The translations under genes were made by a program, and so were the position numbers. From Bdellovibrio sp. (GTDB taxonomy: Bacteria > Myxococcota > SpSt-1050), in NCBI GenBank assembly GCA_020725805.1, contig DYEF01000034.1:1-40816 (forward strand): a stretch of 40,816 nt of DNA. The letters run 5' to 3'. Numbering within the stretch: position 1 is the stretch's first letter; each line of letters begins with the position of its first letter. Under the pieces are notes generated by a model. That model was given only the letters and a program-made list of their open reading frames with translations. It was not told the DNA's origin and ran no database searches. Shown here one piece after another: positions 16,869 to 40,816 of this stretch.

Positions 16869-19800
16869 TTACTCCTCTATTATAAACTCAACTCTTCTGT
16901 TGGTCTCTCTGTTCTTCTTCGAGGTATTCGGCACGAGTGGTTTGTCGGGCCCGTAGCCTTTTGCCTCCAAAATCTCGGCCCTTATTCCTGCCTTTATCAG
17001 GTACTCTCTTACTGCATCTGCCCTGTCCTGAGAGAGCTTGATATTCTTCTCTCTCGAACCGAGGTCATCAGTGTGACCCTCGATCTTCACTTTCTTTATT
17101 TTTGGATTCCCGTTTATAACATCTGCAACCATATCAAGAATTATCTCTGAATTCTTATCGATCTTTGCAGAATTTAGTCCAAACTGAATCTTCTTTTTAA
17201 GCGTTATCTTGTTCTGTTCTACTACAATGAGAGTCTCCTTCGGCTTATCTTTCAAAACAAGTTCCACAGTCGCATCAGAATCCTGTACCACATCAGCAAC
17301 CTTTCCTACAGAGAGTTTGTCCGGGGCTTTTGCAACAACATACCATTTCCCTACATCCAGTTTAGATGTATATATACCTTCCGATGCCTTCTTTATCTCA
17401 ACCTGCTTATCCCCGCTTACTGCAATCACCTCAGCATCATTTATATTCTTTCTCTTTTCGTCGAGTACCTGAACGATAATAGACCCCTGAATAATCTTCT
17501 TTTTAAGTAATATATTCAGACTTGTGACTCCGCCTTTAGTCACCTGCACACTTGCCTTCTTTTCAAAATAACCTTCTCTGCTTACTATGAGGTTATATAG
17601 CCCCGCATTTATTTCAGGAGTTACAAATTCTCCGTTCTTCTTTGTGGCTATATCCGGAAGACCTGACTTCTCAACACTCACGATAGCATTACCCACTGGC
17701 TCCCTGCTATCCTCATCATAAACAACTCCTTTTATCTTACCTGTATTCACAACAGGTTTTGGAGGTTCCACTATTTTTGGTTTTTCTACAACCTTTTCAA
17801 CAACCTGCGGTTTTGACGGCTCCATCCTGTCAGTTGCAAAGAGAATTCCCAGCATCGCCCTTACGAGCGGAGAACCATAACCCGGCAGAATCCCTCCTCC
17901 GACACCTCCAACGATTCCTATTCCGTTGTGAAAGAAATATTTCGAAGAGAGGAGCCATTCGAGCGGATTTTGTTCCTCATACTGAAACGGATATACTGCG
18001 CTCGTGGCACCGGATAGGTCGAAACCAAGTATCAGCTCCTTCCCCTTAATCATTACAGGATAGGTAACACCCACATTGTAAATGATTTCATCGTCATATA
18101 TCTGGTAGAGCTTCTCCCCGAGCCTCGTCTTATCCCTGAATGTATAACCGAGATTGAGAGCGAGCATCATCTTAAACGGGAAGACCCTCGAGAGTGTAAA
18201 CCTCGGAGAGAATGCCACTCCCGATTCACCGAGCATATTTTTCTCATCGCCTGTCGGGAGAATAATTGCAGGTATAAAGCCAAACGAGACAGGATAAGTC
18301 TTCTTCCCAAATACCTTTTCTGTCTGTGAAAGAAATCTAAGTTTTGGAATCAGCCAAATATCCCCGAGTCCTCCCTGAGAAAGCTCTGTCCTTGCACCTT
18401 CATAAAGACCGCTCTTTCCGCTCTGAAAGAGTGCCATCGGAAGCACAAGCCCCGCCTCAAAATACGGAGCAAAAGAATAACTGGCAAAGAGGTCAGCATC
18501 CAGCCTGTAATCCACGAGGTCATCAACCTTATTGTGATTCTCATCTATAAAGACAAGCGGGCTCTTCACATAGAAGAGATAGAAGCCCATATTCAGATTA
18601 TTGCTCTCAGCAATCTCTCCTGCTTCTGTAATTATAACGCCTTTCGAATCAACAGTTGATATCAGACGGTTTGTATTTACCGTTTGTGCATAGAGCGGAA
18701 GTGATGCCATCAGGACCAGAAGCCAAAGAAACCTCCTGCTCTTTTTTCCGATGAACACAAAGAGTCCGAGTATGAATATGGTCAGTAACTCTGCCGGACT
18801 CTCCTCACTCTTCTCTGTCTCATCCATTACAGAGCACTGGCAGCCTCCTCCCATAACCCTGCCTATAAGCTCCGGCCTGCTACCGCCATCAATATTAATC
18901 ACACCAGTATCGGCACCTGTATCACCTGTCTGTGTTACATCAGAGATGATAATATCAACCGTTACATCCGAAATATCCTCTGCCACATCTGATGTTATAT
19001 CTGATACAGCATCTGAAACTGCATCCTCTACAACGTCTGTCTCCAAAGCATCCGTGATAATATCTGGCAGAGCATCGGATTCAGAGATATCACTGCCAGC
19101 ATCAGAAACCTCGACATCCTCTCCACCATCTGTCCCGCCGTCGGGCTGGATGCAGTCTGGTAGATTATCATCGGTCAATCCATTGCAGTCATTATCCTTT
19201 CCATCACATACCTCAGGGACAGGGTCAATAGCACCTATACACTCTCCTATCTTCCCTCCAACACAGGTTGAGATACCCATTCTGCATTCACCTACATTTG
19301 TGCCGCAGGGCACAGTAATATTTTCATCATATTCACCATTGCAGTTATTATCAAGACTGTCACAGACTTCACTATTTGGTGCAACCTCCCCAAGGCAATT
19401 ACCCCATACCCCGCTCTTACACACTCTAACTCCACTCTTACACTCACCTATATCAGAACCACATTTGGAGTATAGATTTTCATCAGTCTCTCCATCACAA
19501 TCATTATCTTTATTGTCACAAATCTCTGCTGTTGGATTTATTGCACCAGCACAAACACCCCACTGGCCATTAACACAGGTCTGAACCCCTTTCTGACATT
19601 CACCCTCATCTGTCCCGCAGGGCTGTGTCTCACCGTCGTTACAGGCACACCCTTCATCAATACTTCCGTTGCAATTATTATCTAACCCATCACCACAAAC
19701 CTCATCCTTTGGGTTAATTGCACCTATGCAATCACCCCAAACTCCGTCTTTACAGCTCTGCAATCCCATCTTGCAACTACCTATGTTAAGACCACACTCC

Positions 19801-22800
19801 TTTGTAAGGAATTCATCAACAAAGCCATCACAATCATTGTCTTTGCCATCACATACTTCCTCCTGAGGACCAACCTCATCCATACAATTTGTATATATCC
19901 CATTTATACACTTCCTGTATCCTGACTTGCACTCTCCAACGGATGTACCGCAAGGTACAGTAAGATTCTCATCTGCCTCTCCGTCACAGTCATTATCCTT
20001 GCCATCACACACCTCAGGAGTCGGTTTTGTCTCACCTATACAAGGTCCCCATTGACCATTAGAACAGACCTGAATGCCCTGTTTACACTCTCCTACATTT
20101 GTACCACAGAGTTGCGTGTTACCATTAATACACTCACAACCTTCATCAACCATTCCATCGCAATTGTTGTCAAGCCCATCACACACCTCAGGCTGAGGAC
20201 CAATCTCCCCGACACAGGCTCCCCATACCCCAAAATAGCAGGTCCTCAATCCCGTCCTACATATACCAATGTTTGAACCACAAACAATAGTTAACTCCTC
20301 ATCAACCAGACCATCACAATCATTATCCTTACCATCACAGCTCTCCTGAGTCGGATTCTTTCCTCCCAAACAATCTGTATATCTACCCGTTACACAATAA
20401 GAAATTCCCTGCATACACTCTCCAACCGAAGAACCACAACTCTGATATATATCTTCATCGGTCTCACCGTCGCAGTCGTTATCAAGTCCGTCACATAGTT
20501 CTACAGATGGTCCCTGCATATTCTCGCAGGCACTCCACTGTCCACCAATACAGGTCTGAACCCCTGCTTTGCATTCACCAACATTGGACCCACAAGCCCT
20601 CTGCTCACCATTTACGGAACAGGCGCATCCTCCATCTACATTATCTACTATACCATCACAGTCATTATCTTTTCCGTCACAGACCTCAGGTGATACTGGT
20701 ATTTCATTCTCACAGTTCCCCCAATCGCCGGCAACACAAGTCTGAAGTCCCATCTTACACTCACCAATATTAGAGCCACATACTTTTGTTAAAAACTCGT
20801 CGGTCTGTCCGTCACAATCGTTATCTTTTCCATCACATATCTCAACAGATGGTTTTACATCTCCACTGCAATTGCTCCACGACCCGTTAAAACATACCTG
20901 TGTTCCCATCTTACACTCACCTATTGCTGAACCACACTCTCTTGAAAGGGCTTCATCGATCTCACCGTCACAATCATTATCAAGCCCGTCACATATCTCA
21001 TTAGATGGGTCGACCTTACCTATACAGGTGGTCCACTGACCTGACGAACAGGTAGAAAATCCCTTTCTGCAGACACCAAGATTATAATCTCCACACTCAA
21101 CAACCAATCCCTCATCTGTTGAACCATCGCAGTCGTTATCTTCATTGTCACAGATCTCGGGCTCAGGATTTACCGCTCCATCACAGTTGCTCCAGCTACC
21201 ACCGGTACAGGTCTGCAAACCCTGTTTGCACTTTCCGATGTTCAAACCACATGCGCGGGTCTGTCCCGGAGTACAATCACAGCCTTCATCTGTAGTTCCG
21301 TTACAATTATTGTCAAGCCCGTCACACATCTCTGTCTGAGGTAATACACCACCTATACAACTCCCCCATATACCACCAGAACAACTCTGAGTACCTTCCT
21401 TACATTCACCTATGTTACTTGAACAGTTTCTTACAAGTGACTCATCTACGAATCCATCGCAGTCGTTGTCAAGTCCGTCACATATCTCTTCTGAGGGTTC
21501 AACAGCACCAGTGCAGGCTCCCCACTCTCCAGCATTGCACCTTTGATACCCGTATCTACAGACTCCTATATTCTTCCCGCACTCCTTTGTAAGGTCCTCG
21601 TCTGTCAATCCATCACAGTCATTGTCCTTGTTATCACATAGTTCTGCTACGGGCTCGATATTCCCAACACACTGACCCCACTGACCATTTTCACAGGTCT
21701 GTGTTCCAAACTTACACTCACCATTATTACTTGTTCCACAATTTCTCGTCTGACCATTAATACAATTACAGCCCTCATCTGTTGCATTATCACAGTCATT
21801 ATCCTTACCGTCACAGATCTCCTCCACCGGTTTGATCTCACCAATGCATTCCGGCGTATAAACACCGCTTATGCAATATCTGAAACCGCTTCTGCATTCA
21901 CCTATGTCTGAACCACACTTAATTGATAATTGCCCACCTGTATCTGCCTCATCGGTAGTCCCGTCACAATCGTTATCCTGTCCGTCGCATATCTCAGGCT
22001 GGGGCTCAATTGAACCTAAACATTGACCCCATTTACCATCGGAGCACCACTGGGTACCCTGACGGCAGGCGCCAATATTTATTCCACAGGACCTCTGCTG
22101 GCCGTCGATACAGGAACAACCCTCATCAGTAACTCCATTGCAGTTATTATCTTTTGTATCACAAACCTCAGTCACTGGCTGTATAGAGCCTGTACACTCT
22201 GATGAGTAAACTCCATCCGTACAGATTCTCTTACCTTTCCTGCATTCTCCAATATCAGTTCCACACTCCATATAAAGAGGTAACCCATCATCACCTTCAT
22301 CTACCTGACCATCACAATCATTGTCTTTATTGTCACATATTTCAACAACGGGACCAACCGAACCAACACATTCCCTCCACTGACCGTTTATACATTGCTG
22401 CGTACCCGCAACACACTCTCCTATATCTGTTCCACAGGGTCTGAAGAGCCCATTATCAATAATACCATCACAATCATTGTCAAGTCCGTCACAGACCTCC
22501 GGCTCAGGCCAGATTGCCCCACTACACGCACCCCAAACACCATTATCACAGACCTGCGTCCCCTGTTTGCAAATACCCATTGTATATCCGCAAGGCCTGC
22601 TTGTTCCAGTCTGACACTCACACCCTTCATCAATAGTCCCATCACAATTATTGTCAAGCCCGTCACATAATTCTGCTACGGGCTTAACCTCTCCAACACA
22701 ATCCCCCCAATTACCACCGACACAGGTCTGAATACCTGTCCGGCATTCACCAATACTCGAGCCACACACCCTTGTAAGTCCTTCATCAGCCTCTCCATCG

Positions 22801-25800
22801 CAGTCATTATCAAGCTCGTCACAGATCTCAGAACGTGGACCTATGGAACCTGTACAGGCCGACCAGATACCATTGGAGCAGACCTCAACACCCGTCTGGC
22901 ATTCTCCGATGTCTGTCCCGCAGACCCTTGAAAGCGATTCATCAATCTGACCGTTACAGTTGTTGTCAATATTATCACAAACCTCTGTAACTGGTTCGAT
23001 ATTGCCAATACAATTACCCCAGACTCCTGCAGTACAGTATTGAATACCATACCTGCAGGCACCAACGTTGGAACTACCACATTGCTGATAAAGTCCGTTA
23101 TCTGTCAATCCATCACAGTCGTTATCCTTATTATCACAAATTTCTACCACAGGATTTGTTGCACCGACGCAGGGGCCCCACTGTCCGTTCTCCTGACAGG
23201 TCTGTATTCCCTGCCTGCACTCGCCAATACCCGAGCCACAGGGTTGAGTATTCCCTGAAACGCAAGTACAACCTTCATCAGTCGTACCATCACAATTATT
23301 ATCTTTTCCGTCACACTTCTCTTCCGATGGTAAAATACCTCCTTCACAGAGCCCCCACGCACCTCCGACGCAGGTCTGTATTCCCTGACGGCATTCACCA
23401 ACATTAGAAGAACAGGTCCTTGTAAGCTCTTCATCAGTATGTCCATCGCAGTCGTTGTCAAGCCCGTCACATATCTCAAGCCCTGGATTAATGCCACCTG
23501 TACAATTACCCCAAACACCTTCCGAACAGGTCTGAATACCAAACTCACAAACACCTATATTCGTTCCACAATTTCTTGTCAGCTCTTCATCTGTCTGGCC
23601 ATCACAATCATTATCTTTGTTATCACAAATCTCTGCAACTGGATTAATACCACCTTCACAAGAACCCCAATTGCCATTCGTACAGGTCTGAGTACCATAC
23701 CTGCATTCACCTATATTGAGTCCACAGTTCCTTGTCTGACCATTTATACACGAGCAGCCTTCATCAACTGCATTATCGCAGTCATTATCAAGTCCATCAC
23801 AGATCTCTTCTGAGGGTTGAACTTCACCGACACACTGGGTCGTATATTGCCCGTTTATGCATATATATAATCCCTTCTTACACTCCCCGATATCAGAACC
23901 GCAAGGAATAGATAATTGCCCACCAGAATCTGCCTCATCTGTCGTTCCATCGCAGTCATTATCCTGCCCATCACAGATTTCCGATTGTGGATCTATCTTT
24001 CCATAACATTCTATTGACCAGTGATAATCGATGCAGAGTTTTACTCCAGGTCTGCAAACCCCAATGCTTGAACCCGGACATGGGAGTGTATCACCGGGTT
24101 TACACTCCACATTATCAGAACCATCGAGCCAGTTCGGAATTCCATCATCATCTATATCGGCCGTCAGTTCAAAGACATCGGGATTATTGTCTCCATCTGA
24201 ATCATAGTCTCTGAAATTAGCCGTCCCATCATTATCAGCATCCGGGTAGAGTGTATTGCAGACAGGATTTGTGCACAATGAAAAGTTCGGTAAATATTCA
24301 AGATTATCTGAGAGCGTATCATTGTCCGAATCCAGATCCCTGAAATCAGCAGTACCATCACCATCAATATCAACCGGGGACTGACCTGACTGAGATCTTC
24401 CGTATTCAACAGAGTCAGGAATACCATCATTATCCGAATCAGAATCGGCAAAATCCTTTACACCATCGTTGTCTCTGTCAGATACATCATAGGGATTGCA
24501 GTTCGTATAATTTTTACAGACTTCATAATAATCACTTATACCATCACTATCTGTATCACCCCCGTTTGGATTTGTTCCTATTGAAATCTCAATATTGTTT
24601 TTCAGTCCGTCCCCATCCAGATCACCATCTGGTCCATCATTATCATTTATATCGAGATAATTTGGTTTCCCATCGCTATCCAAATCACCTGTCCCTTCAA
24701 CTATATCAGGTTTGCTATCTCCATCGGAATCCGAATCTATATAATTGGGGAATCCGTCATTATCACAATCTGAGACAGATCCACCACATTGCCCATTTGA
24801 AGCAGAGTATTCTATGCTATCCAGAATCCCATCATTATCTCCATCTGTATCTCTAAAATCATACTGTCCATCCGCGTCAGAGTTCCTTGGTGGATAATTA
24901 TAAGCGCCTGACGGTAACCCGCTTTCCAGCAAATCTGATATCCCATCGTTATCAGAATCTGTATCAAGGAAGTCCCTGGTCCCATCACCATCGGTATCTA
25001 CCGGATTGGAGGGATTACAGGGGCCGGAGGTCGGGCATATTTCAAACCTGTCACCAATATGGTCACCATCAGTATCTGCATTATTTTTACTGGAGCCAGC
25101 CGCATCTTCTTCCGCATTTGTCAAACCATCATTATCGGCATCTGCAGATGGGCCATCCAGGTCGTTGGAGTCTCTGTAATTCGGTATTCCATCCCCATCC
25201 GAATCTCCTGTCCCTTCAAACTGGTCGGACTTTCCATCATTGTCAGAATCCCAGTCTTTATAATTGGGAATACCGTCTCCATCCGTATCAACATTCCCCT
25301 CTACAGAATCCAGAATTCCATCATTATCAGAATCTGTATCCCTGAAATCAGGAACAGTATCTCCATCTGTATCTTTTGGGGGCTCATTTATAAAAATATT
25401 TCCTTTCTCAACAGAATCAGGTAATCCATCATTATCAGAATCAGCATCTCTTGCATCTATTGTACCGTCCCCATCGGTATTAACCGGATTTAAAGGGTTG
25501 CAGAGTCCCACAGATGGACATACTTCATAATAATCATTTATTCCATCTCCATCTGTATCAGCATTATGAGTATCTGTAGTCGCATTCTGTTCGGCCTGAT
25601 TGGAGAGACCGTCATCATCAGGATCACCAAGAGGTCCATCCTTATCGTCCTCGTCCATATAATTTACTGCACCATCACCATCATTGTCATCAACTCCCTC
25701 AAGGTAATCTCCTTTACCATCTCCATCCGAATCCACATCCAGATGATTAGGAATTCCATCATTATCACAATCAGTAAGAGGTCCTGCGCACTGCCCAGAA

Positions 25801-27980
25801 GAGACATTATATTCAACACTATCCAGAATCTGGTCATTGTCAGAATCGTTATCCTGAAAATCGTATACTCCATCATAGTCTGAATCCAGAGGTGGCTGAT
25901 TGAGTACATTATTCCCCTTCTCAAAGATATCTGTCAGACCATCACCGTCTGAATCCTGATCAAGTGAATCAGGAGTTCCGTCATTGTCATGGTCGAATGG
26001 GTTTGAAGGATTTGCTCCCACCTCATAGCCATCCAGAATATTATCATTATCCGAATCCGGGTCATTCGGGTCCATACAGGCGACAATATCAGCAGAAGAA
26101 CAGTAACAAATACATCTCTCTCCCGGCGTTGTGCAATTGGCCGTCAGGACCCAGTTGTTACAGGCTGGTGTTCCGGAGGTTGCACCATTCGGCACGCCAT
26201 CATTATCAAGGTCACCGCAGGGTCCATCAAAATCATTTATATCAAGATAATTCGGATTACCATCACAATCTACATCACCTGTCCCTTCTAAAATATCACT
26301 TTTTTCATCCCCATCCGAATCTGTATCAGCAAAATTAGGTTTGCCGTCATTGTCACAGTCCCAGAGTGGTGCTCCCGAAACGCATTGGGCATTTGTAACA
26401 TTATATTCTATTGTATCAGAGATTCCATCTCCATCCGATTCAAGGTCCCTGTAATCCGGGGTTCCATCATTATCCGAATCAAACGGCAATGTTAAGAAAT
26501 CATCATCTCCCACTTCAACACTGTCTAAAACGGTGTCATTATCGGAATCTGTATCCAGATAATCAGGAGTACCATCTCCATCTGTATCCGTTGGAGGAAT
26601 ATTAAATCTACCTTCGTGAATATCACTTATATTATCTCCATCGGCATCAATATCAGGCATAGCCTTGAGCTGCAACTGGAAGTTGTCAAAGGCATCGCCA
26701 CCACCTGTCTGCACAACACAGGGCTTATCACACTGCACACGATATGCAGTATTTCTGTACCCTGCTGCGAGAAAATCAATATAACCATCTGCGTTCAATA
26801 CCTGAGGTGAAGGTGGTACGGTCCCGGTTCCAGAAACTCTTGTTATTGTAACAGTAGTATTGTCATACATAGCAAACAAAACTGCACCCAGATTCTGTGT
26901 CTGAAAGATTATATCAAGCCCGCCTTTATCCAGCTGCTGTGCAATATCATCTCCCATATATGCAATAGTTGTCCCTCCCTGAGTATCCCCGCACCATACC
27001 TTTATATTTTTATCCGATGTAATCCTGTAATTGCGTGTTGCACCTGCAACACCAAGATTGTTCCTGAAATAAATCTCATTTGCAGCAAGAGTTCTATAGC
27101 AGGGGTTATTACAACAGCCGTTTGCATCACAACCCGAACATGAGGCAATATTAAGATATTTTCCGGCACATATGTTATTATAATCAAAAATAGCAATATT
27201 CGTGTTGTTTTCAAACGAAAACGCAGCAATATCTCCGCCATTCGCAGCAAGTCTCATTACAGGGCAGTAGAATGTCTTACCTGTGTCCGTTCCATTCTCG
27301 GAGGGGTTCACGTCATAACCATCTACAGCTGACGCAACAATGGCAACATTTCCGACACTCCTGACCCATGTTACATCATGGAAACCTATAAATGCCCTTA
27401 CATCCCTGAACTCTCCCTGAGCAAGATTGAACTGGCCTCTTATATTTCCGCTCTCATCCATAATACAGACACCGCAGGTACAATTGGTCGCAGAGGTATT
27501 ACACTGGGCACCTGTCGTGGAGGCCTCGTATCCGATTGCCACATAGATTGTCTCGGTCCTTGTGGCATCCCCAACCGGTGCAAAGAAGAAGAACTCTTTT
27601 CCAACCCTTATCTTGGGGTCAATCGTTGAATAAAATACTGTCCCCGAGTTTTCGTGGGCAAAGAAGGCAGCTCCTCCTCCCATCTGAGCAACGATTGGAT
27701 ATTTATAAGAGCGAACCTTGTAATGTCCAACCGGTAAAGTGACAATTTTTAGCGAACTCCTGCCTATTAGAATTGGTCCCCAGTGAAAGGCTGGATTATC
27801 CAGCGACCAGACCTCTACATAGGTATTATCATAAATACCCGATAGATAAAGTCTGCCGCCGGTTGAACCGCCAAGAGGGTTATAGACATAAAAGAGATTT
27901 CCAGCAGCAAATACTGAATTTGATATCAGAGTGAATATACAAACTACAAGCAACAGTAAAAATCTTCTTTTTTCTTTCAT
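16869..27980 (-). CDS. Giant surface protein: TSP3/MopE-repeat passenger fused to OmpA-type outer-membrane domain
   Basis: 3703 aa. Signal peptide (SVFA-A near residue 25), then a beta-rich N-terminal domain (about 27-440), TSP3-like DxDxDGxxD repeats (443-1290), 30 MopE-like repeats (1291-2943) with core CDGxDNDCDGxxDE, and an acidic linker to about 3040. At 3044-3083 comes GGGCQCSV, a hydrophobic helix (AELLTIFILGLFVFIG) and KKSRR, closely resembling a MYXO-CTERM sorting signal. There is no stop: FLWLLVLMASLPLYAQ follows like a second signal peptide, then a predicted beta-barrel (about 3099-3330), a Pro/Lys/Val linker, two carboxypeptidase-regulatory-like beta domains and an OmpA C-terminal peptidoglycan-binding domain (3591-3703; GHTDD and LSQDRA). 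The ribosome site is AGGAGAG. The gene has its own 268-base leader. Domain calls are well supported; processing is inferred. Confidence 0.8.
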   Translation of the reverse strand: MKEKRRFLLLLVVCIFTLISNSVFAAGNLFYVYNPLGGSTGGRLYLSGIYDNTYVEVWSLDNPAFHWGPILIGRSSLKIVTLPVGHYKVRSYKYPIVAQMGGGAAFFAHENSGTVFYSTIDPKIRVGKEFFFFAPVGDATRTETIYVAIGYEASTTGAQCNTSATNCTCGVCIMDESGNIRGQFNLAQGEFRDVRAFIGFHDVTWVRSVGNVAIVASAVDGYDVNPSENGTDTGKTFYCPVMRLAANGGDIAAFSFENNTNIAIFDYNNICAGKYLNIASCSGCDANGCCNNPCYRTLAANEIYFRNNLGVAGATRNYRITSDKNIKVWCGDTQGGTTIAYMGDDIAQQLDKGGLDIIFQTQNLGAVLFAMYDNTTVTITRVSGTGTVPPSPQVLNADGYIDFLAAGYRNTAYRVQCDKPCVVQTGGGDAFDNFQLQLKAMPDIDADGDNISDIHEGRFNIPPTDTDGDGTPDYLDTDSDNDTVLDSVEVGDDDFLTLPFDSDNDGTPDYRDLESDGDGISDTIEYNVTNAQCVSGAPLWDCDNDGKPNFADTDSDGDEKSDILEGTGDVDCDGNPNYLDINDFDGPCGDLDNDGVPNGATSGTPACNNWVLTANCTTPGERCICYCSSADIVACMDPNDPDSDNDNILDGYEVGANPSNPFDHDNDGTPDSLDQDSDGDGLTDIFEKGNNVLNQPPLDSDYDGVYDFQDNDSDNDQILDSVEYNVSSGQCAGPLTDCDNDGIPNHLDVDSDGDGKGDYLEGVDDNDGDGAVNYMDEDDKDGPLGDPDDDGLSNQAEQNATTDTHNADTDGDGINDYYEVCPSVGLCNPLNPVNTDGDGTIDARDADSDNDGLPDSVEKGNIFINEPPKDTDGDTVPDFRDTDSDNDGILDSVEGNVDTDGDGIPNYKDWDSDNDGKSDQFEGTGDSDGDGIPNYRDSNDLDGPSADADNDGLTNAEEDAAGSSKNNADTDGDHIGDRFEICPTSGPCNPSNPVDTDGDGTRDFLDTDSDNDGISDLLESGLPSGAYNYPPRNSDADGQYDFRDTDGDNDGILDSIEYSASNGQCGGSVSDCDNDGFPNYIDSDSDGDSKPDIVEGTGDLDSDGKPNYLDINDNDGPDGDLDGDGLKNNIEISIGTNPNGGDTDSDGISDYYEVCKNYTNCNPYDVSDRDNDGVKDFADSDSDNDGIPDSVEYGRSQSGQSPVDIDGDGTADFRDLDSDNDTLSDNLEYLPNFSLCTNPVCNTLYPDADNDGTANFRDYDSDGDNNPDVFELTADIDDDGIPNWLDGSDNVECKPGDTLPCPGSSIGVCRPGVKLCIDYHWSIECYGKIDPQSEICDGQDNDCDGTTDEADSGGQLSIPCGSDIGECKKGLYICINGQYTTQCVGEVQPSEEICDGLDNDCDNAVDEGCSCINGQTRNCGLNIGECRYGTQTCTNGNWGSCEGGINPVAEICDNKDNDCDGQTDEELTRNCGTNIGVCEFGIQTCSEGVWGNCTGGINPGLEICDGLDNDCDGHTDEELTRTCSSNVGECRQGIQTCVGGAWGLCEGGILPSEEKCDGKDNNCDGTTDEGCTCVSGNTQPCGSGIGECRQGIQTCQENGQWGPCVGATNPVVEICDNKDNDCDGLTDNGLYQQCGSSNVGACRYGIQYCTAGVWGNCIGNIEPVTEVCDNIDNNCNGQIDESLSRVCGTDIGECQTGVEVCSNGIWSACTGSIGPRSEICDELDNDCDGEADEGLTRVCGSSIGECRTGIQTCVGGNWGDCVGEVKPVAELCDGLDNNCDGTIDEGCECQTGTSRPCGYTMGICKQGTQVCDNGVWGACSGAIWPEPEVCDGLDNDCDGIIDNGLFRPCGTDIGECVAGTQQCINGQWRECVGSVGPVVEICDNKDNDCDGQVDEGDDGLPLYMECGTDIGECRKGKRICTDGVYSSECTGSIQPVTEVCDTKDNNCNGVTDEGCSCIDGQQRSCGINIGACRQGTQWCSDGKWGQCLGSIEPQPEICDGQDNDCDGTTDEADTGGQLSIKCGSDIGECRSGFRYCISGVYTPECIGEIKPVEEICDGKDNDCDNATDEGCNCINGQTRNCGTSNNGECKFGTQTCENGQWGQCVGNIEPVAELCDNKDNDCDGLTDEDLTKECGKNIGVCRYGYQRCNAGEWGACTGAVEPSEEICDGLDNDCDGFVDESLVRNCSSNIGECKEGTQSCSGGIWGSCIGGVLPQTEMCDGLDNNCNGTTDEGCDCTPGQTRACGLNIGKCKQGLQTCTGGSWSNCDGAVNPEPEICDNEDNDCDGSTDEGLVVECGDYNLGVCRKGFSTCSSGQWTTCIGKVDPSNEICDGLDNDCDGEIDEALSRECGSAIGECKMGTQVCFNGSWSNCSGDVKPSVEICDGKDNDCDGQTDEFLTKVCGSNIGECKMGLQTCVAGDWGNCENEIPVSPEVCDGKDNDCDGIVDNVDGGCACSVNGEQRACGSNVGECKAGVQTCIGGQWSACENMQGPSVELCDGLDNDCDGETDEDIYQSCGSSVGECMQGISYCVTGRYTDCLGGKNPTQESCDGKDNDCDGLVDEELTIVCGSNIGICRTGLRTCYFGVWGACVGEIGPQPEVCDGLDNNCDGMVDEGCECINGNTQLCGTNVGECKQGIQVCSNGQWGPCIGETKPTPEVCDGKDNDCDGEADENLTVPCGTSVGECKSGYRKCINGIYTNCMDEVGPQEEVCDGKDNDCDGFVDEFLTKECGLNIGSCKMGLQSCKDGVWGDCIGAINPKDEVCGDGLDNNCNGSIDEGCACNDGETQPCGTDEGECQKGVQTCVNGQWGVCAGAINPTAEICDNKDNDCDGETDENLYSKCGSDIGECKSGVRVCKSGVWGNCLGEVAPNSEVCDSLDNNCNGEYDENITVPCGTNVGECRMGISTCVGGKIGECIGAIDPVPEVCDGKDNDCNGLTDDNLPDCIQPDGGTDGGEDVEVSDAGSDISESDALPDIITDALETDVVEDAVSDAVSDITSDVAEDISDVTVDIIISDVTQTGDTGADTGVINIDGGSRPELIGRVMGGGCQCSVMDETEKSEESPAELLTIFILGLFVFIGKKSRRFLWLLVLMASLPLYAQTVNTNRLISTVDSKGVIITEAGEIAESNNLNMGFYLFYVKSPLVFIDENHNKVDDLVDYRLDADLFASYSFAPYFEAGLVLPMALFQSGKSGLYEGARTELSQGGLGDIWLIPKLRFLSQTEKVFGKKTYPVSFGFIPAIILPTGDEKNMLGESGVAFSPRFTLSRVFPFKMMLALNLGYTFRDKTRLGEKLYQIYDDEIIYNVGVTYPVMIKGKELILGFDLSGATSAVYPFQYEEQNPLEWLLSSKYFFHNGIGIVGGVGGGILPGYGSPLVRAMLGILFATDRMEPSKPQVVEKVVEKPKIVEPPKPVVNTGKIKGVVYDEDSREPVGNAIVSVEKSGLPDIATKKNGEFVTPEINAGLYNLIVSREGYFEKKASVQVTKGGVTSLNILLKKKIIQGSIIVQVLDEKRKNINDAEVIAVSGDKQVEIKKASEGIYTSKLDVGKWYVVAKAPDKLSVGKVADVVQDSDATVELVLKDKPKETLIVVEQNKITLKKKIQFGLNSAKIDKNSEIILDMVADVINGNPKIKKVKIEGHTDDLGSREKNIKLSQDRADAVREYLIKAGIRAEILEAKGYGPDKPLVPNTSKKNRETNRRVEFIIEE
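18687..18842 (-). other. Internal MYXO-CTERM-like hairpin (Cys3047 to Ala3098)
   Basis: This segment codes for CQC, a 15-residue acidic stretch, a hydrophobic helix, KKSRR and a second hydrophobic helix ending LYA-Q. The Cys, helix and Arg order is that of MYXO-CTERM signals, which are normally the extreme C-terminus and are processed by the myxosortase pathway. The second helix looks like a signal peptide with a signal peptidase site at Ala3098. The AGG AGG codons of Arg3082-Arg3083 resemble a ribosome site, but the next in-frame ATG is about 22 bases away, so separate initiation seems unlikely. Confidence 0.6.
19152..24110 (-). repeat. 30 tandem MopE-like repeats (about 55 aa each)
   Basis: Each unit codes for a stretch such as CGxxIGECxxGxQxC, then GxWGxCxG and PxxEICDGxDNDCDGxxDE. 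I count 30 copies of the CDGxDNDCDG core. Roughly every fourth to fifth unit carries the variant end DEGCxC in place of DExLxxxCG. The core resembles the metal-binding motif found in MopE-related proteins and is rich in Asp/Asn ligands and cysteines. The DNA is diverged enough that simple recombination would not collapse it. Confidence 0.8.
24111..26654 (-). repeat. TSP3-like calcium-binding repeat array
   Basis: Codes for residues 443-1290 of the giant protein. Dozens of DxDxDGxxD units are separated by short segments, and every 150-170 residues a larger super-repeat recurs (xxPPxDxDGDxxPDFRDTDSDNDGILDS, a short spacer, then DLDGPxGDxDxDGL). About five super-repeats can be followed. Such arrays bind calcium and form stiff rods in surface proteins. 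Confidence 0.75.
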
Positions 27981-35588: not shown

Positions 35589-35621
35589 GGTGTCAGGTAC
35601 CTACAAAAAGGTGCCAGGTAC
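35589..35621 (+). repeat. Pair of GGTGYCAGGTAC motifs
   Basis: GGTGTCAGGTAC (35589-35600) and GGTGCCAGGTAC (35610-35621) lie in tandem, 21 bases start to start, in the spacer between the WYL regulator and the alpha-galactosidase gene. The same motif recurs at about 16.5 kb, and a variant at 0.2 kb. They fit dispersed REP-like elements. Confidence 0.5.
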
Positions 35622-35687: not shown

Positions 35688-36734
35688 TTATATAAAGCCT
35701 TGGGGTTTGATTATTTTCACATCATTTCCAAATGATAATATCCACCTCTTTACCTCGTGAGTCAGATATGTACTAAACTTCATTCTGAGTCTGCCGTCTT
35801 CGAGTTCCTCAAAGCTCTGATTTTCAAACCACTTTCGCTCTCCAACCAGCCTTTTTAAGACGGTATCATTTTTAAAAATCAGTTCAAATCTCGTTTTGTG
35901 CTCTGCTGTCATTACACCGATATACTTATTGATGTGGTCTTCGGGATTAAAATTATCGTAATTATAGTGGAATTTTTTACCTGTATAGCCTGCTTTCTTT
36001 ATCCTGTCGACAGCAAAAGTCCTGATGGCTCTGTATCCCCTCTTAACTCCACTTCCAAGCAGGTACAATAATCCCTCAAAATAGATTACTGAGAGAGGCT
36101 TAACAAGAACCTGAATCGGTTTTTTATATCCCAGTCCAAAATATTCGAGTCTTAATACCTTTTTATTTATAATTCCGTCTATGACAGTTTGAAGAATTTT
36201 CGAATTACATTCTTTGGGGGCAAATCTGAAAAAGTAGAAGATCTTATCTATATTATCCAGTAAATCTTTGATATCACTTTTATATTTTAATGAATCCAGC
36301 AGGCTCTTATATATAATATCAGCTTCATTTTTCAGATTTTCTGCCTTAAACCTTTCAAAAAATCTCTCTGTCATATAGAAGACCAGCAACTTATTTAAAC
36401 TATCGATGGCTTGATTATTGGTTTTTATATTTCCGTTTTCATCTGATTCTGTAGAAGCCGTCCCGAGATACCAGTACTCCCCTCTTGTCTCATCCTTTGC
36501 CTTTATCAGATCCATCCTGCTTCCCAATTTCATCGATTCATCAGTTATAATCTCTCTGAGCTCCTTAAAGTAACCTCTTATCGTCCTTTCGGACAAATTA
36601 TGCTCTGTTCTGAGTTTGCTAACATATATTCTGTTTGCTCTGTCGGTAAAGAGATTAATGAGGATATTTGCAAATATCTTTGCCTTTGGTTCCGCTACTT
36701 TTTCTCTGAGTATCTTTGGTCTGTCAAAATTCAT
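35688..36734 (-). CDS. WYL-domain transcriptional regulator
   Basis: 348 aa. The N-terminal 90 residues form a helix-turn-helix region with the sequence NLSERTIRGYFKEL. A WYL domain (about 170-270) follows, with LRLEYFGLGYKK, PLSVIYFEGLLYLLG and the conserved RAIRTFAVDRI; a C-terminal WCX-type extension ends the protein (RWILSFGNDVKII). WYL domains bind nucleic acid or nucleotide ligands, and such regulators often control bacterial defence loci. The ATG at 36734 with GGGAG upstream is preferred over the in-frame ATG at 36779, which lies in a stretch without family resemblance. It is divergent from the four-gene operon, separated by 122 bases, and is its likely regulator. Confidence 0.8.
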   Translation of the reverse strand: MNFDRPKILREKVAEPKAKIFANILINLFTDRANRIYVSKLRTEHNLSERTIRGYFKELREIITDESMKLGSRMDLIKAKDETRGEYWYLGTASTESDENGNIKTNNQAIDSLNKLLVFYMTERFFERFKAENLKNEADIIYKSLLDSLKYKSDIKDLLDNIDKIFYFFRFAPKECNSKILQTVIDGIINKKVLRLEYFGLGYKKPIQVLVKPLSVIYFEGLLYLLGSGVKRGYRAIRTFAVDRIKKAGYTGKKFHYNYDNFNPEDHINKYIGVMTAEHKTRFELIFKNDTVLKRLVGERKWFENQSFEELEDGRLRMKFSTYLTHEVKRWILSFGNDVKIIKPQGFI

Positions 36735-36797
36735 CTCTCTCCCTCTGAAAAAACGGTCACAAATAAAAAAATCCGGCAAATTTTATGCAATCTTACC

Positions 36798-36835
36798 TGC
36801 TATATTGATAAGTGAAAACGGGAATATTTCTTCCC
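36798..36835 (+). promoter_or_regulatory. Extended -10 promoter and hairpin/operator before the AAA+ operon
   Basis: TGC-TATATT (36798-36806) is an extended -10 element with five of six consensus positions; no good -35 is visible. A perfect 5-bp dyad GGGAA (36820-36824) / TTCCC (36831-36835) lies at the predicted transcript start. It could be a 5' hairpin or a binding site for the divergent WYL regulator. Confidence 0.45.
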
Positions 36836-36856
36836 TTTGTTTGAAGGAGGTGTACT

Positions 36857-39019
36857 ATGAAAAAGAGAGAAAAGAAAGAAAAAAAGAGAGTGATTCAGAT
36901 GCCACAGAACGATATTCAACTTATGGAGTTTTTCAGAAGATACCTCAGATTTCTTGAAAGGGTCCGTGCAAACAATATAAATATTACCGGGAAATACGAC
37001 AGAATACTGACAAAGTACGAAAAAATTATATATGACATTCTGAATATCGGCTATGCTGCTAAGAACTCTCCTGTTCTTTACCTGATTCAGAAATTCAGAT
37101 TTAACACGGGCGAATTCAAGACATTTATGTATCTCTTATGCGAATTCGGAGAGAGGGAGGTCCAGTCAAGAGGAGATGAAGACGAAGAAGATTTTGAATT
37201 AGACGAAGATACAACTATACCTGCCCGGAGGATAATTGAGACATTCTATAACGACTCTGAGAATATCAGGACAGCCCTGTTTTCAGAAAAATCAAAACTG
37301 AGCAGGAAAGATATCATCAAAGTCAATATCAACATAAAACAGATTCCGTCAGGAGATTACAACGCCTCCGTAAGACTTAGTGACTCTATTCTGAAACACT
37401 TCAGGCTGACCGAATTTCCCGGCAGGGACAAAAACATAAAACTAATACGGCAGGAAGACATTAAGGAGCCGCTGACAGAAGACATTACTACCCTTCTCGA
37501 CAAATATATAAATCCTGAAACATCTACCCAGCTATATGATGCAATTAACCTGATACAGAGGACAAATAATCTTTTGCAGGAAAAAAAAGAGGTAGAATTC
37601 CCCGTTATCCTCCTTTACGGAAAGACTCAAAGAGAGATTCAGCTCGTTATATGGTCTTTAGCCAGACAATTAAAAAGGGATATACTTGAATACAGGCAAA
37701 AAAAAGACGTTGAAGAGGATTTCAGCTTTCTTGAAGAGTCTGATTTTGAGTCAGACCCGCATCTTGAAGAGTATCTCAGGACATCTTACCACGGAGATTA
37801 CATACTGAATATTCACATTAATACCCGCTCAGACCTCAAAAAGATAAACTACCTTTTCTCCAGATATCAGGAATCAAGAAAAAATCTGATTATTATAACG
37901 TCGCAAGACAGACTCAATATTGACGGATTTGGTATCGATAAGGTCAGATATTCCTACATACCGGTACAATTTAAGTTGCCCGATGAGGAGACCAGAAAGA
38001 GGCTCTGGATAAACAGGATACCTTCCAGATTCTATGACGGTACCGGTTACGAGGAATTTACAAAGAGATTCGGTAATTTCGGTCTCGAACATATAGAACT
38101 CACAGTCAAAAAGGCCTTGGAGAGAATGAACCTCGACGGCAAGAATGTAATCGAAGACGGATTTATTACAGATGCGGCAACAGACATAGAGAGGGCAATG
38201 GATTCATACTTTACCGAATCGGAAATATTCGAATCGAACATAGAAAACGACTCGGTTCTGCCGAAAGAAAAATTATCCGATGTAATACTGAACGCAGGAC
38301 TAGGACCGGAGATACAAAATATCATCAGAATAATCAGAAACAAAGACTCTTTCTACAAAGACGTCCTCGGCACCAGTCAGACCTACGGAAAGGGAATCAA
38401 GATTCTCTTCTTCGGACCTCCCGGGACAGGCAAGACTCTCACGGCAAGGGCAATCGCAGGAGAGGCTGGTATGCCATTTCTTGAATTAAACCTGAGTAAA
38501 CTGATGAATCCGCTCGTGGGTATGACCGAAAAGAAGATTGTTGAATACTTTAAGATGGCAAAGAGAGAGAATGCCGTCTTATTTATAGATGAATGCGATT
38601 CACTCATCCTGAGCAGAGAAAGGCTTAATCATAGCTGGGAGTTTTCGCATATAAATGTCCTGTTGAAACAGATAGAGGACTTTGACGGAATACTCATTAT
38701 GTCTACAAATTTTGAAGAGGTTCGGGATAAGGCAATAAACAGGAGGATGCACTTCTTTATAAAATTCGATATGCCCTGTTTTGAGAGCAGAAGAAGACTC
38801 CTTAACTATATAGTGCCAGAGAAGTACCACAACACATTTGACCTCGACAGAATATCGCGGATAGAATTTACAGGCGGAGACCTCAGAAATGTCTGGCTCA
38901 GAGTCGGTCAGAAGATATTCTGTGATAAGAACGTAGATACCGACGTCTTCATCGAAGAACTCAAGAGAGAGAGAGAAAAATACAACGAAGAGACCTGTAA
39001 CAAGAAATGTGGATTTTAG
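36857..39019 (+). CDS. Tandem AAA+ ATPase with degenerate first ATPase domain
   Basis: 720 aa. A Lys/Arg-rich N-terminus and a helical region (about 20-190) precede two AAA+ modules. The first (about 245-430) has lost the P-loop (LLYGKTQREI, Gly255-Lys256) and is probably inactive. The second (about 490-720) is complete: Walker A GPPGTGKT (520-527), Walker B LFIDECD (Asp578-Glu579), sensor-1 Asn618 and arginines Arg629/Arg630. Layout and N-terminal segments resemble the Cdc48-like ATPases with a helical N-domain found beside contractile injection systems, but no such genes are nearby. It likely works as a hexameric unfoldase or remodeller. AAGGAGG 6 bases upstream gives the start. It is first in an operon whose genes all overlap. 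Fold is firm; role is not. Confidence 0.8.
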   Translation: MKKREKKEKKRVIQMPQNDIQLMEFFRRYLRFLERVRANNINITGKYDRILTKYEKIIYDILNIGYAAKNSPVLYLIQKFRFNTGEFKTFMYLLCEFGEREVQSRGDEDEEDFELDEDTTIPARRIIETFYNDSENIRTALFSEKSKLSRKDIIKVNINIKQIPSGDYNASVRLSDSILKHFRLTEFPGRDKNIKLIRQEDIKEPLTEDITTLLDKYINPETSTQLYDAINLIQRTNNLLQEKKEVEFPVILLYGKTQREIQLVIWSLARQLKRDILEYRQKKDVEEDFSFLEESDFESDPHLEEYLRTSYHGDYILNIHINTRSDLKKINYLFSRYQESRKNLIIITSQDRLNIDGFGIDKVRYSYIPVQFKLPDEETRKRLWINRIPSRFYDGTGYEEFTKRFGNFGLEHIELTVKKALERMNLDGKNVIEDGFITDAATDIERAMDSYFTESEIFESNIENDSVLPKEKLSDVILNAGLGPEIQNIIRIIRNKDSFYKDVLGTSQTYGKGIKILFFGPPGTGKTLTARAIAGEAGMPFLELNLSKLMNPLVGMTEKKIVEYFKMAKRENAVLFIDECDSLILSRERLNHSWEFSHINVLLKQIEDFDGILIMSTNFEEVRDKAINRRMHFFIKFDMPCFESRRRLLNYIVPEKYHNTFDLDRISRIEFTGGDLRNVWLRVGQKIFCDKNVDTDVFIEELKREREKYNEETCNKKCGF

Positions 39020-39650
39020 AATAGGAGTCTCTGAATCCGCAATGAATCCGTCAGTAGTCAATAGATCCATTCAGTTTCTTAAACCAGAAATAAATAGGAT
39101 TTTGAATTTTGTCTGTGATTTTGTTGGAATGCCTTTGGATAAATTCAAAAAGAGAGTAAGAGTTAGGATTGTATCTTCCAATTCGGACAGGGAAGAGAGC
39201 TACTTTGATGAAGACACGAACGTCCTGAATATTAATCTGCAGGAGACCGGGTGGGACGGCTTCAATCCGGAATATAGTAAATACTGGCAGTATCTCGTAT
39301 TTCACGAAATCGGACATTTATTTGAAGAATATGTTGCAAAAGATGCAAAGTTCATTAAATTATTCGGAGATGTAAATAAGGATTATGACGAAGACAAAAT
39401 TTATCAGAATCTACCAAAAACCTTTTCAGAGAATTATGTATCCCGATATGCCACCAAACATCCCTCAGAAGACTGGGCTGAGACATTTGCAACGGCATTA
39501 ATTATCAGATATTTTAATGAAACAGACAAACTCAAGAGTCTTAAAACGAAAAATTTTTATAGCAAGATTAGATATGTATATTCAATTAAGGACATAATCA
39601 AAAGAAAGGGCAAAGACAAGGAGGTACAAAATGGAAAAAGACCTGATTGA
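39009..39650 (+). CDS. Zinc metallopeptidase (gluzincin-like)
   Basis: 213 aa, cytoplasmic (no signal peptide). HEIGH (99-103) followed by LFEEY is a classical HExxH zinc site. Downstream, HPSEDWAETFA (Glu158) offers the third ligand, as in the small zinc-binding peptidases of the Peptidase_Mx type. The annotated start is GTG at 39009, which overlaps the ATPase gene by 11 bases and lacks a strong ribosome site; ATG at 39042 is an alternative with AGGAG too far upstream. The protein probably cuts a specific partner, perhaps one fed by the neighbouring AAA+ ATPase. The protease call is good, the target unknown. Confidence 0.75.
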   Translation: MDFRIGVSESAMNPSVVNRSIQFLKPEINRILNFVCDFVGMPLDKFKKRVRVRIVSSNSDREESYFDEDTNVLNINLQETGWDGFNPEYSKYWQYLVFHEIGHLFEEYVAKDAKFIKLFGDVNKDYDEDKIYQNLPKTFSENYVSRYATKHPSEDWAETFATALIIRYFNETDKLKSLKTKNFYSKIRYVYSIKDIIKRKGKDKEVQNGKRPD

Positions 39651-40125
39651 GCAACTAAAATCCGAAAAGGCTCTATACGCCGAGTGCCCAAGTGGAGATA
39701 TTTTTCCTCTGCACAAGGCAATTATGTTTTATGTGGATGGTCCGGTTCCTGAAAACGTCAAAAAGATTATTGAAGAGAAGAAGAAAGAGCTGGAAGAGAA
39801 AAGGCTCGAACTGAAAAAGAAGAAAAAGAAGCTTCAGGAAAGGTCAGAAGTAGCAACAAGATCTACAAATCTTGGTAAGATTCTGGAGAAAGTTGCGCCG
39901 GCATTAAAAGGCTTTGAATTTGACAGGAAGGACTGCCGTGCACTTTTTGAGCCAATCGACTACATAGTCTTTAGTGGTCTCTCCACAAAAGAAGGGAATA
40001 TTGATTCCCTGTACTTTATCGATATCAAGACAGGTAATTCGAGGTTAAATGAACATCAGAGGCAGATAAAAGATGCCGTTGAGAGAGGAAAAATCGACTT
40101 TGACAACTATGGAGGCAAGCTATGA
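39631..40125 (+). CDS. Holliday-junction-resolvase-like endonuclease (PD-(D/E)xK), active-type paralogue
   Basis: 164 aa. A short N-terminal part (CPSG at 19-22) and a charged coiled coil (about 45-75) precede a nuclease domain of the Endonuc_Holl type. FEPIDYIVF provides Asp110, YFIDIKTG provides Asp131 and Lys133 (the D-x-K form of the PD-(D/E)xK core), and NEHQRQIKDAV supplies the conserved Gln/Arg after it. It should bind and cut structured or invading DNA, though family members are poorly characterised. AAGGAGG 6 bases upstream gives the start, which overlaps the peptidase gene by 20 bases. Its paralogue follows directly. Confidence 0.7.
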   Translation: MEKDLIEQLKSEKALYAECPSGDIFPLHKAIMFYVDGPVPENVKKIIEEKKKELEEKRLELKKKKKKLQERSEVATRSTNLGKILEKVAPALKGFEFDRKDCRALFEPIDYIVFSGLSTKEGNIDSLYFIDIKTGNSRLNEHQRQIKDAVERGKIDFDNYGGKL

Positions 40126-40634
40126 ATAAAGATATTTTACTGAATTTTCAGGAATTCCAGAAAATTCTCGTGATATGTCCCGTATGCGGCGAGATATACA
40201 GGCTGAGTGAACTAAAACTCTTCTATCAGGGGAAGGCAAAGCGAACCTGGCTTGATGAAATAAGAGATGAAGAGACAAGAATTGAACATTTAGAGGAGAA
40301 ACTGGAGGAAGAGAAGGAGAAAATAAAGGAGAAGGCACAGGAGAAGGCGAGAAGGGAGCTACCAAAATTACTTAAAAAGACCGTTCCGGTAATCTGTAAG
40401 CACGGTTATTACCCTCAGGATGTAAAAGCACTCTTTGACCCTGTTGACTTTGTAATATTTGACGGGATGAACTTAAAAGAAAAGGTTAAAAGGGTCGTAT
40501 TCTTCGACGGCCCACCGCAAAACAAAGTAAGAGAGCGGATTCAGAATACACTGAGAAGAGCAATAAAAGCTGGAAACTACGAATGGAGGACGGTAAAGAT
40601 AGATGAATTGGGGAGGATAGCAATCGATTTCTAA
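40122..40634 (+). CDS. Endonuc_Holl-like paralogue with lost catalytic lysine
   Basis: 170 aa, with the same layout as its neighbour: CPVCG (19-23, a zinc-like CxxC), a charged coiled coil (about 45-80) and a C-terminal nuclease-like domain. FDPVDFVIFDG keeps Asp109, but the segment equivalent to FIDIKTG reads FFDGPPQ: Asp129 is kept, while the catalytic Lys is replaced by Pro131. Cutting activity is therefore probably lost. It may form a heterodimer with the active paralogue or act as a DNA-binding sensor. ATGA overlap (4 bases) and GGAGG 6 bases before the ATG tie it to the operon. Confidence 0.7.
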   Translation: MNKDILLNFQEFQKILVICPVCGEIYRLSELKLFYQGKAKRTWLDEIRDEETRIEHLEEKLEEEKEKIKEKAQEKARRELPKLLKKTVPVICKHGYYPQDVKALFDPVDFVIFDGMNLKEKVKRVVFFDGPPQNKVRERIQNTLRRAIKAGNYEWRTVKIDELGRIAIDF

Positions 40635-40692
40635 TTAACTTGTTAGAAACAAATAAACTCAAATGTCCAAAAATTCATGTAACTGCAACGTC

Positions 40693-40730
40693 AAAATGTT
40701 ACATTTCTGCAAAATTAAAATGTTACATTT
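40693..40730. repeat. Two direct copies of the dyad AAATGTTACATTT
   Basis: AAAATGTTACATTT occurs at 40693-40706 and 40717-40730, 24 bases start to start. Each contains the near-perfect palindrome AAATGT-T-ACATTT. A partial inverted copy (ATGTAAC) lies just before, at 40677-40683. Multiple short repeats of this kind are found inside the ends of IS21-family elements, so an insertion sequence may begin at the right edge of the window; they could instead be operator sites. The remaining bases to 40816 hold no gene. Confidence 0.4.
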
Positions 40731-40816
40731 TTCGGCTTCATTGATTTTCATATAACTGCCTCACTATATTCTTTTACTATCCCTGATTTTGTTTTGCAAA
40801 GTCTTTTTCCTTTGTA

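Follow-up and report, generated by a model that had tools for sequence, protein, structure and literature searches.

A mobile WYL-associated cassette of a tandem AAA+ ATPase, a zinc peptidase and a PD-(D/E)XK nuclease pair in a Bdellovibrio sp. genome, with a possible role in anti-phage conflict

A cassette of five genes, in which a minus-strand WYL regulator faces four plus-strand genes for a tandem AAA+ ATPase, a cytoplasmic zinc peptidase, a PD-(D/E)XK nuclease (N1) and a paralogue of the latter (N2), was located at the right end of the contig and is a real conserved unit, the order of WYL, ATPase, peptidase and N1 being kept in two species at different sites. The cassette is new in composition and is tentatively read as a mobile conflict cassette, repressed by its WYL protein and most likely directed against phages; this reading starts from gene content and order, kept and lost catalytic residues, the presence of a block at two sites and purifying selection, all of which were shown. 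The window, i.e. the whole stretch of 40,816 nucleotides that was analysed, corresponds to the complete contig C29 of genome G000 (3.29 Mb, 97.9% complete). All five genes listed in a preliminary description were present as ORFs, and their families were assigned by Pfam; almost every detail of that description held.

The WYL regulator (35688-36734, minus strand) comprises an N-terminal HTH, a WYL domain and a WCX extension, which is the layout expected of a BrxR/CapW-type regulator. PF13280 (5e-11) and PF25583 (WCX, 3e-8) matched above cut-off, and HTH_Mga (2e-4) scored 21.9 bits, slightly under its cut-off of 23. The more likely start is ATG 36734, giving 348 aa, and the ORF could also open at TTG 36779; the spacing of 122 bases to the ATPase gene quoted in the preliminary description agrees with the ATG. 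The resulting divergent intergenic region (36735-36856, 122 nt) presumably holds the WYL-controlled promoter. Its final 17 nt upstream of the ATPase start (TTTGAAGGAGGTGTACT) were identical in the congeneric genome G001, and inverted repeats sought as an operator between the two genes were no better than those in shuffled sequences. Like BrxR and CapW, the regulator adjoins an operon that it presumably controls, whereas the genes beside it belong neither to BREX nor to CBASS. For BrxR homologues, a location by defence systems was reported in 48% of cases (PMC9122601), and the repression of CBASS by the WYL protein CapW is lifted by phage infection (PMC9122588).

The tandem AAA+ ATPase (36857-39019, plus strand, 720 aa) is composed of an N region, a degenerate D1 and an active D2. 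PF00004 matched residues 516-638 (1e-28), corresponding to D2, which carries canonical motifs (GPPGTGKT and LFIDECD). In D1, at about residues 245-450, Walker A and B were absent in three relatives (LLYGKTQREIQ, LFYGRPQREIE and ILYGEDEALAS); weak hhalign matches (E 0.0008-0.004) pointed to an AAA domain in correct register, and a collinear alignment (73-723) with other tandem AAA proteins was obtained. A double AAA+ ATPase with one dead domain, as described earlier, is thereby upheld, with the AAA identity of D1 taken from these weak profile matches. Judged by its motifs, D2 would be able to hydrolyse ATP, and D1 would have a structural role only. The AlphaFold model was confident in D2 alone, and the N-terminal half of the protein, searched against plasmids, gave no match.

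The zinc peptidase (39042-39650, plus strand, 202 aa) was assigned to PF15887 (1.5e-17; 64.3 bits, above cut-off; profile positions 92-183 of 236 matched), and both the HExxH motif and a downstream glutamate were present (HEIGH ... SEDWAETFA), these two stretches being invariant between the two species (G000 and G001). Its structure model had a mean pLDDT of 51, and a fold search with this model returned no significant match; the weak matches of the low-confidence model were minigluzincins, IrrE/PprI and CapP, all with E of at least 0.05. A sequence search of the PDB with the peptidase, N1 and N2 returned nothing.

N1 (39631-40125, plus strand) was identified as a PF10107 PD-(D/E)XK nuclease (4e-26, 92.3 bits), in which the catalytic D...D-x-K is present (FIDIKTG), with an N-terminal CP motif and a predicted coiled coil. 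N2 (40122-40634, plus strand) is a paralogue of N1 with 25% identity, scored 47.5 bits with PF10107 (2e-12; cut-off 23.8) and has an N-terminal CPVCG motif. At the catalytic site it reads FFDGPPQ, the lysine being changed to proline, and this lysine was kept in every other homologue aligned across that site. The alignment confirmed the earlier statement that the catalytic lysine is present in N1 and missing from N2, and by this substitution N2 is presumed to be an inactive PF10107 homologue. No AAA or peptidase partner was recognised in the genome context of the other PF10107 genes seen.

For the four plus-strand genes, overlaps of 11, 20 and 4 nt had been described. The 20-nt and 4-nt overlaps held, with good ribosome-binding sites at both (aaggaggt, ggagg), and the 11-nt overlap did not. 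The peptidase start is more likely ATG 39042 than GTG 39009, because homology to the congeneric protein begins after this ATG and because the congeneric ATG sits 37 nt beyond the ATPase stop; therefore, the ATPase/peptidase junction is likely a gap of approximately 22 nt.

The remaining genes flanking the cassette in the window were ordinary, a melibiase gene lying next to the cassette in G000; the preliminary description had suggested looking for a defence island, and the neighbourhood in the window is none. On the other side, the end part of a multi-copy, insertion-sequence-like repeat (40678-40816) cuts the contig about 43 nt past N2. Near-identical copies of this repeat were found on many G000 contigs, mostly at contig ends, a distribution that fits an insertion sequence. 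Between the melibiase and WYL genes, at 35589-35621, a REP-like repeat was observed (GGTGTCAGGTACC ... GGTGCCAGGTAC). Elsewhere in the window, positions 16869-27980 are occupied by one ORF (3703 aa); its start resembles a signal peptide, and its G+C content exceeds that of its surroundings.

Conservation was assessed against G001, the sole other genome of the genus available for comparison, in which the WYL, ATPase, peptidase and N1 genes occur in the same order and orientation as in G000. Identities between the two genomes were 54% for the ATPase, 55% for the peptidase and 65% for N1, the last value covering 103 aa, as the G001 contig ends inside N1, short of any N2 position. Differences at codon positions 1/2/3 amounted to 0.33/0.23/0.62 (ATPase), 0.32/0.23/0.60 (peptidase) and 0.27/0.16/0.63 (N1); third positions thus differ approximately 2-4 times more than first and second positions, from which it follows that the three genes are under purifying selection. 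Of the WYL gene, G001 has a shortened homologue (on L040) without the WCX end, which was lost where the gene meets its neighbour; a tblastn search for the remaining C-terminal part on that contig found none. As a separate observation, this gene (L040:4656-5804) reads on antisense across the neighbouring gene.

In G001, the cassette adjoins dehydrogenase and lipoprotein genes. At the G000 counterpart of this site (contig C56), the lipoprotein gene lies beside uvrA and the cassette is absent; the melibiase gene, searched in G001, gave no match. With the block present at the G001 site and its G000 counterpart empty, the unit was concluded to move as a block. A second WYL/AAA pair was detected in G000 on contig C9 (L007:2749-6969; 33-34% identity, 34% for the WYL protein), without peptidase or nuclease and beside two tRNA-Ser genes, tRNA genes of this kind being common integration sites. 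Two further features were noted at this locus, a cysteine-containing ORF of 55 aa (MSNKPTKKKLCVMCGSKK...) immediately upstream of the AAA gene and, between the WYL and AAA genes, copies similar to the REP-like repeat described above (GGTGCCAGGCA).

In a search of 195 genomes from the phylum, peptidase family members this similar were confined to G000 and G001 plus one distant match, and the N-terminal half of the ATPase to G000 (twice) and G001. Other phyla were covered via plasmids, phages and viral contigs together with one peptide-pattern scan of a genome collection. The full set was not found in the plasmid, phage and viral collections, where distant relatives of single parts were the only matches; no peptidase or nuclease was present in viral contigs, the ATPase matches there were for the most part phage AAA genes of one domain, with neither WYL nor peptidase, and the peptide-pattern scan yielded distant AAA proteins only. 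On present data, the full set is restricted to one genus. Conserved linkage, which had been proposed as a check, was thus found in one further species, at a different site, and so far not in distant taxa (195 genomes plus the plasmid, phage and viral searches), and the cassette is not yet a system recurring across distant taxa.

No described system fitted the cassette in PADLOC 2.0, which returned generic WYL and AAA matches and weak matches elsewhere, and no description of a system with this gene set was found in the open-access literature, in line with the earlier statement that none was known. IetAS also combines an AAA ATPase with a protease, and IetA was the best PADLOC match of the cassette ATPase (3e-37). 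However, the ATPase scored 104.8 bits with NF042959, far below the NCBIfam cut-off of 510, and the cassette differs in its tandem AAA architecture, its metallopeptidase (IetS being a subtilisin-like serine protease), its extra nucleases and its WYL regulator. IetAS was ruled out by this sub-threshold score and by the adjacent PF15887 peptidase, which had no PADLOC match; the IetA matches reflect the generic AAA domain. Activation of pro-nucleases by proteases is established for Hachiman (HamMAB), AVAST and Canu, and the study's authors regard additional enzyme classes of this type as possible (Tuck et al. 2025, PMC12799240). As in these systems, a protease and a nuclease are encoded with a sensor or motor, making the cassette a candidate for proteolytic control of a DNase. 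Those systems use trypsin-like or caspase proteases with nucleases of the MBL fold, whereas the cassette encodes an HExxH metallopeptidase and PD-(D/E)XK proteins, one of them dead; a described pair of the HamMAB/Avs/Canu type was ruled out, PF15887 and PF10107 standing in place of their families.

Associations of the regulator and of related ATPases were then taken from plasmids. With the cassette WYL protein as query, the seven closest plasmid WYL genes all adjoined defence or candidate-defence genes, namely CRISPR type I-MYXAN (twice) and type I-E (once), dynamin or GTPase loci (twice, one with DUF262), ThiF/multiubiquitin with a PDDEXK nuclease (once) and DUF3320 with PD-(D/E)XK (once). 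In a related tandem-AAA clade, surveyed through top-ranked matches and not as a random sample, 9 of 14 plasmid loci had a WYL gene next to the AAA gene or within its gene run (Desulfosarcina, Thiodictyon, Rhodoferax, Pantoea, Novosphingobium, Leisingera, Fuscovulum, Sphaerotilus and Sphingobium), the Sphaerotilus locus lying beside BREX-2 genes, and PD-(D/E)XK genes were near in about half of the 14. Eight further AAA loci scanned with the WYL profile contained none. The plasmid loci (Desulfosarcina BuS5, Pantoea, Sphingobium and others) resemble the cassette in an ATPase of about 640-780 aa and often in PD-(D/E)XK genes; they differ in a D1 Walker A that is present in most members, in other AAA and WYL clades and in having no such metallopeptidase. 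In the D2 tree, the cassette ATPase fell outside the WYL-linked plasmid clade, and in the WYL tree the partners were spread over several separate clades. Common descent was rejected on these two trees, so that the likeness is one of analogy only, and the WYL/tandem-AAA pairing therefore probably arose more than once. Such repeated pairing probably argues for a functional reason, as an analogy between modules and not as homology of systems.

A role in defence or DNA processing had been proposed in the preliminary description. The associations of WYL and tandem AAA genes point to defence, and distant linkage of the whole set is lacking so far; the links between cassette and defence are indirect, yet consistent. 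Against the defence reading count the restriction of the set to one genus and its absence from the plasmid, phage and viral collections, the ordinary flanks, the position of the ATPase outside the plasmid clade, the other PF10107 genes seen, which have no AAA or peptidase partner, and the C9 pair without peptidase or nuclease. If the cassette acts in conflict, the WYL regulator would, by comparison with BrxR and CapW, hold the divergent operon off and release it on an infection ligand or nucleic-acid signal. The AAA+ motor would recognise or remodel the trigger or a complex and present a substrate to the peptidase, which, coupled to the motor, might cut whatever protein restrains the nuclease, N2 being one candidate and N1's own N-terminal part the other. 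N2 would pair with N1 via their common N-terminal/coiled-coil part, as inhibitor or dock, and freed N1 could cut DNA, whereby phage replication would be stopped or the infected cell killed. This unlocking of a nuclease by the peptidase is rather doubtful taken on its own; its nearest worked-out precedent, by analogy, is the proteolytic nuclease unlocking of Hachiman, AVAST and Canu. The most specific version, in which a metallopeptidase driven by a half-dead tandem AAA+ protein releases a PD-(D/E)XK nuclease from its dead paralogue, as a new anti-phage type and one of several independently assembled WYL/tandem-AAA/nuclease modules, is distinctly doubtful.

The main rival to the conflict-cassette reading is a DNA-damage or stress unit, in which an IrrE/CapP-like peptidase would inactivate a repressor, perhaps the WYL protein, and the induced ATPase and nucleases would help to repair or process DNA. 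The peptidase's weak, non-significant fold matches fit such a unit about as well as the defence scheme; damage responses are under the control of WYL proteins such as PafBC and DriD (PMC9122601), and Holliday junction resolvases gave PF10107 its name. However, it is with the nucleases, and not with WYL, that the peptidase shares translational coupling; the cassette encodes no separate CapH-like HTH repressor and, being confined to one genus and mobile, differs from core repair genes. A damage-response unit is unlikely, though a serious alternative.

That the ATPase and peptidase serve protein quality control, as an AAA+ unfoldase whose metallopeptidase is a protein of its own, comparable to a split FtsH, with the nucleases as passengers, is improbable. 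D2 does group with the classical AAA proteins, among relatives of FtsH and Cdc48, and the two genes are neighbours in both species; but N1 is also conserved and under purifying selection, and its gene overlaps the peptidase gene by 20 nt, while WYL control and mobility would be odd for a housekeeping function.

A detached part of a contractile injection system, with the ATPase loading cargo as Pvc15 does, was judged very unlikely. The best plasmid matches of the ATPase were ATPases of Serratia contractile-injection loci, with which D2 shares a broad clade (0.90), and an N region, an ATPase-dead D1 and an active D2 are also the layout of Pvc15/Afp15 of extracellular contractile injection systems (PMC11495950 for the inactive D1 and active D2 of Pvc15). 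In contrast to these proteins, the cassette ATPase gave no match to the PF22977 winged helix, for which the Serratia protein scored 8e-17; genes for a tube, baseplate or spike were not recognised nearby, and the phage-sheath gene (PF04984) was absent from G000 (97.9% complete) and G001, control genomes being positive. An injection-system locus, named in the preliminary description as an outcome that would speak against its proposal, was rejected on this absence of a sheath gene. Chance neighbours without joint function, to which the C9 copy of WYL and AAA alone might point, are the least credible explanation, given the order kept at another site in a second species, the gene overlaps and the purifying selection.

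Should the conflict-cassette reading with its unlocking step be true, the proteolytic unlocking of nucleases known from bacterial immunity would gain a metallopeptidase and PD-(D/E)XK nucleases as further enzyme types, with the dead paralogue as the likely lock. The plasmid survey suggests repeated pairing of WYL with tandem AAA+ proteins, which makes this ATPase class a place to seek more defence systems.

On plasmids L076, L078-L080, L082 and L092-L095, WYL was seen beside tandem-AAA genes with varied partners, including PD-(D/E)XK nucleases, ADP-ribosylglycohydrolase, Sir2 and PLD with an SNF2 helicase; the pairing recurs as a module in two phyla, and no description of it was found. In Desulfosarcina, Pantoea and Rhodoferax (L076:9293-15302, L080:9400-15165 and L079:11362-15719, respectively), WYL and AAA are followed by a run of three genes, whose products are a hypothetical protein (about 400-470 aa), a protein of about 650 aa that is PLD-like or hypothetical, and a helicase of the SNF2 type. 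The Desulfosarcina helicase was weakly similar to PADLOC PDC-M27C, and the PLD protein there to ZacB.
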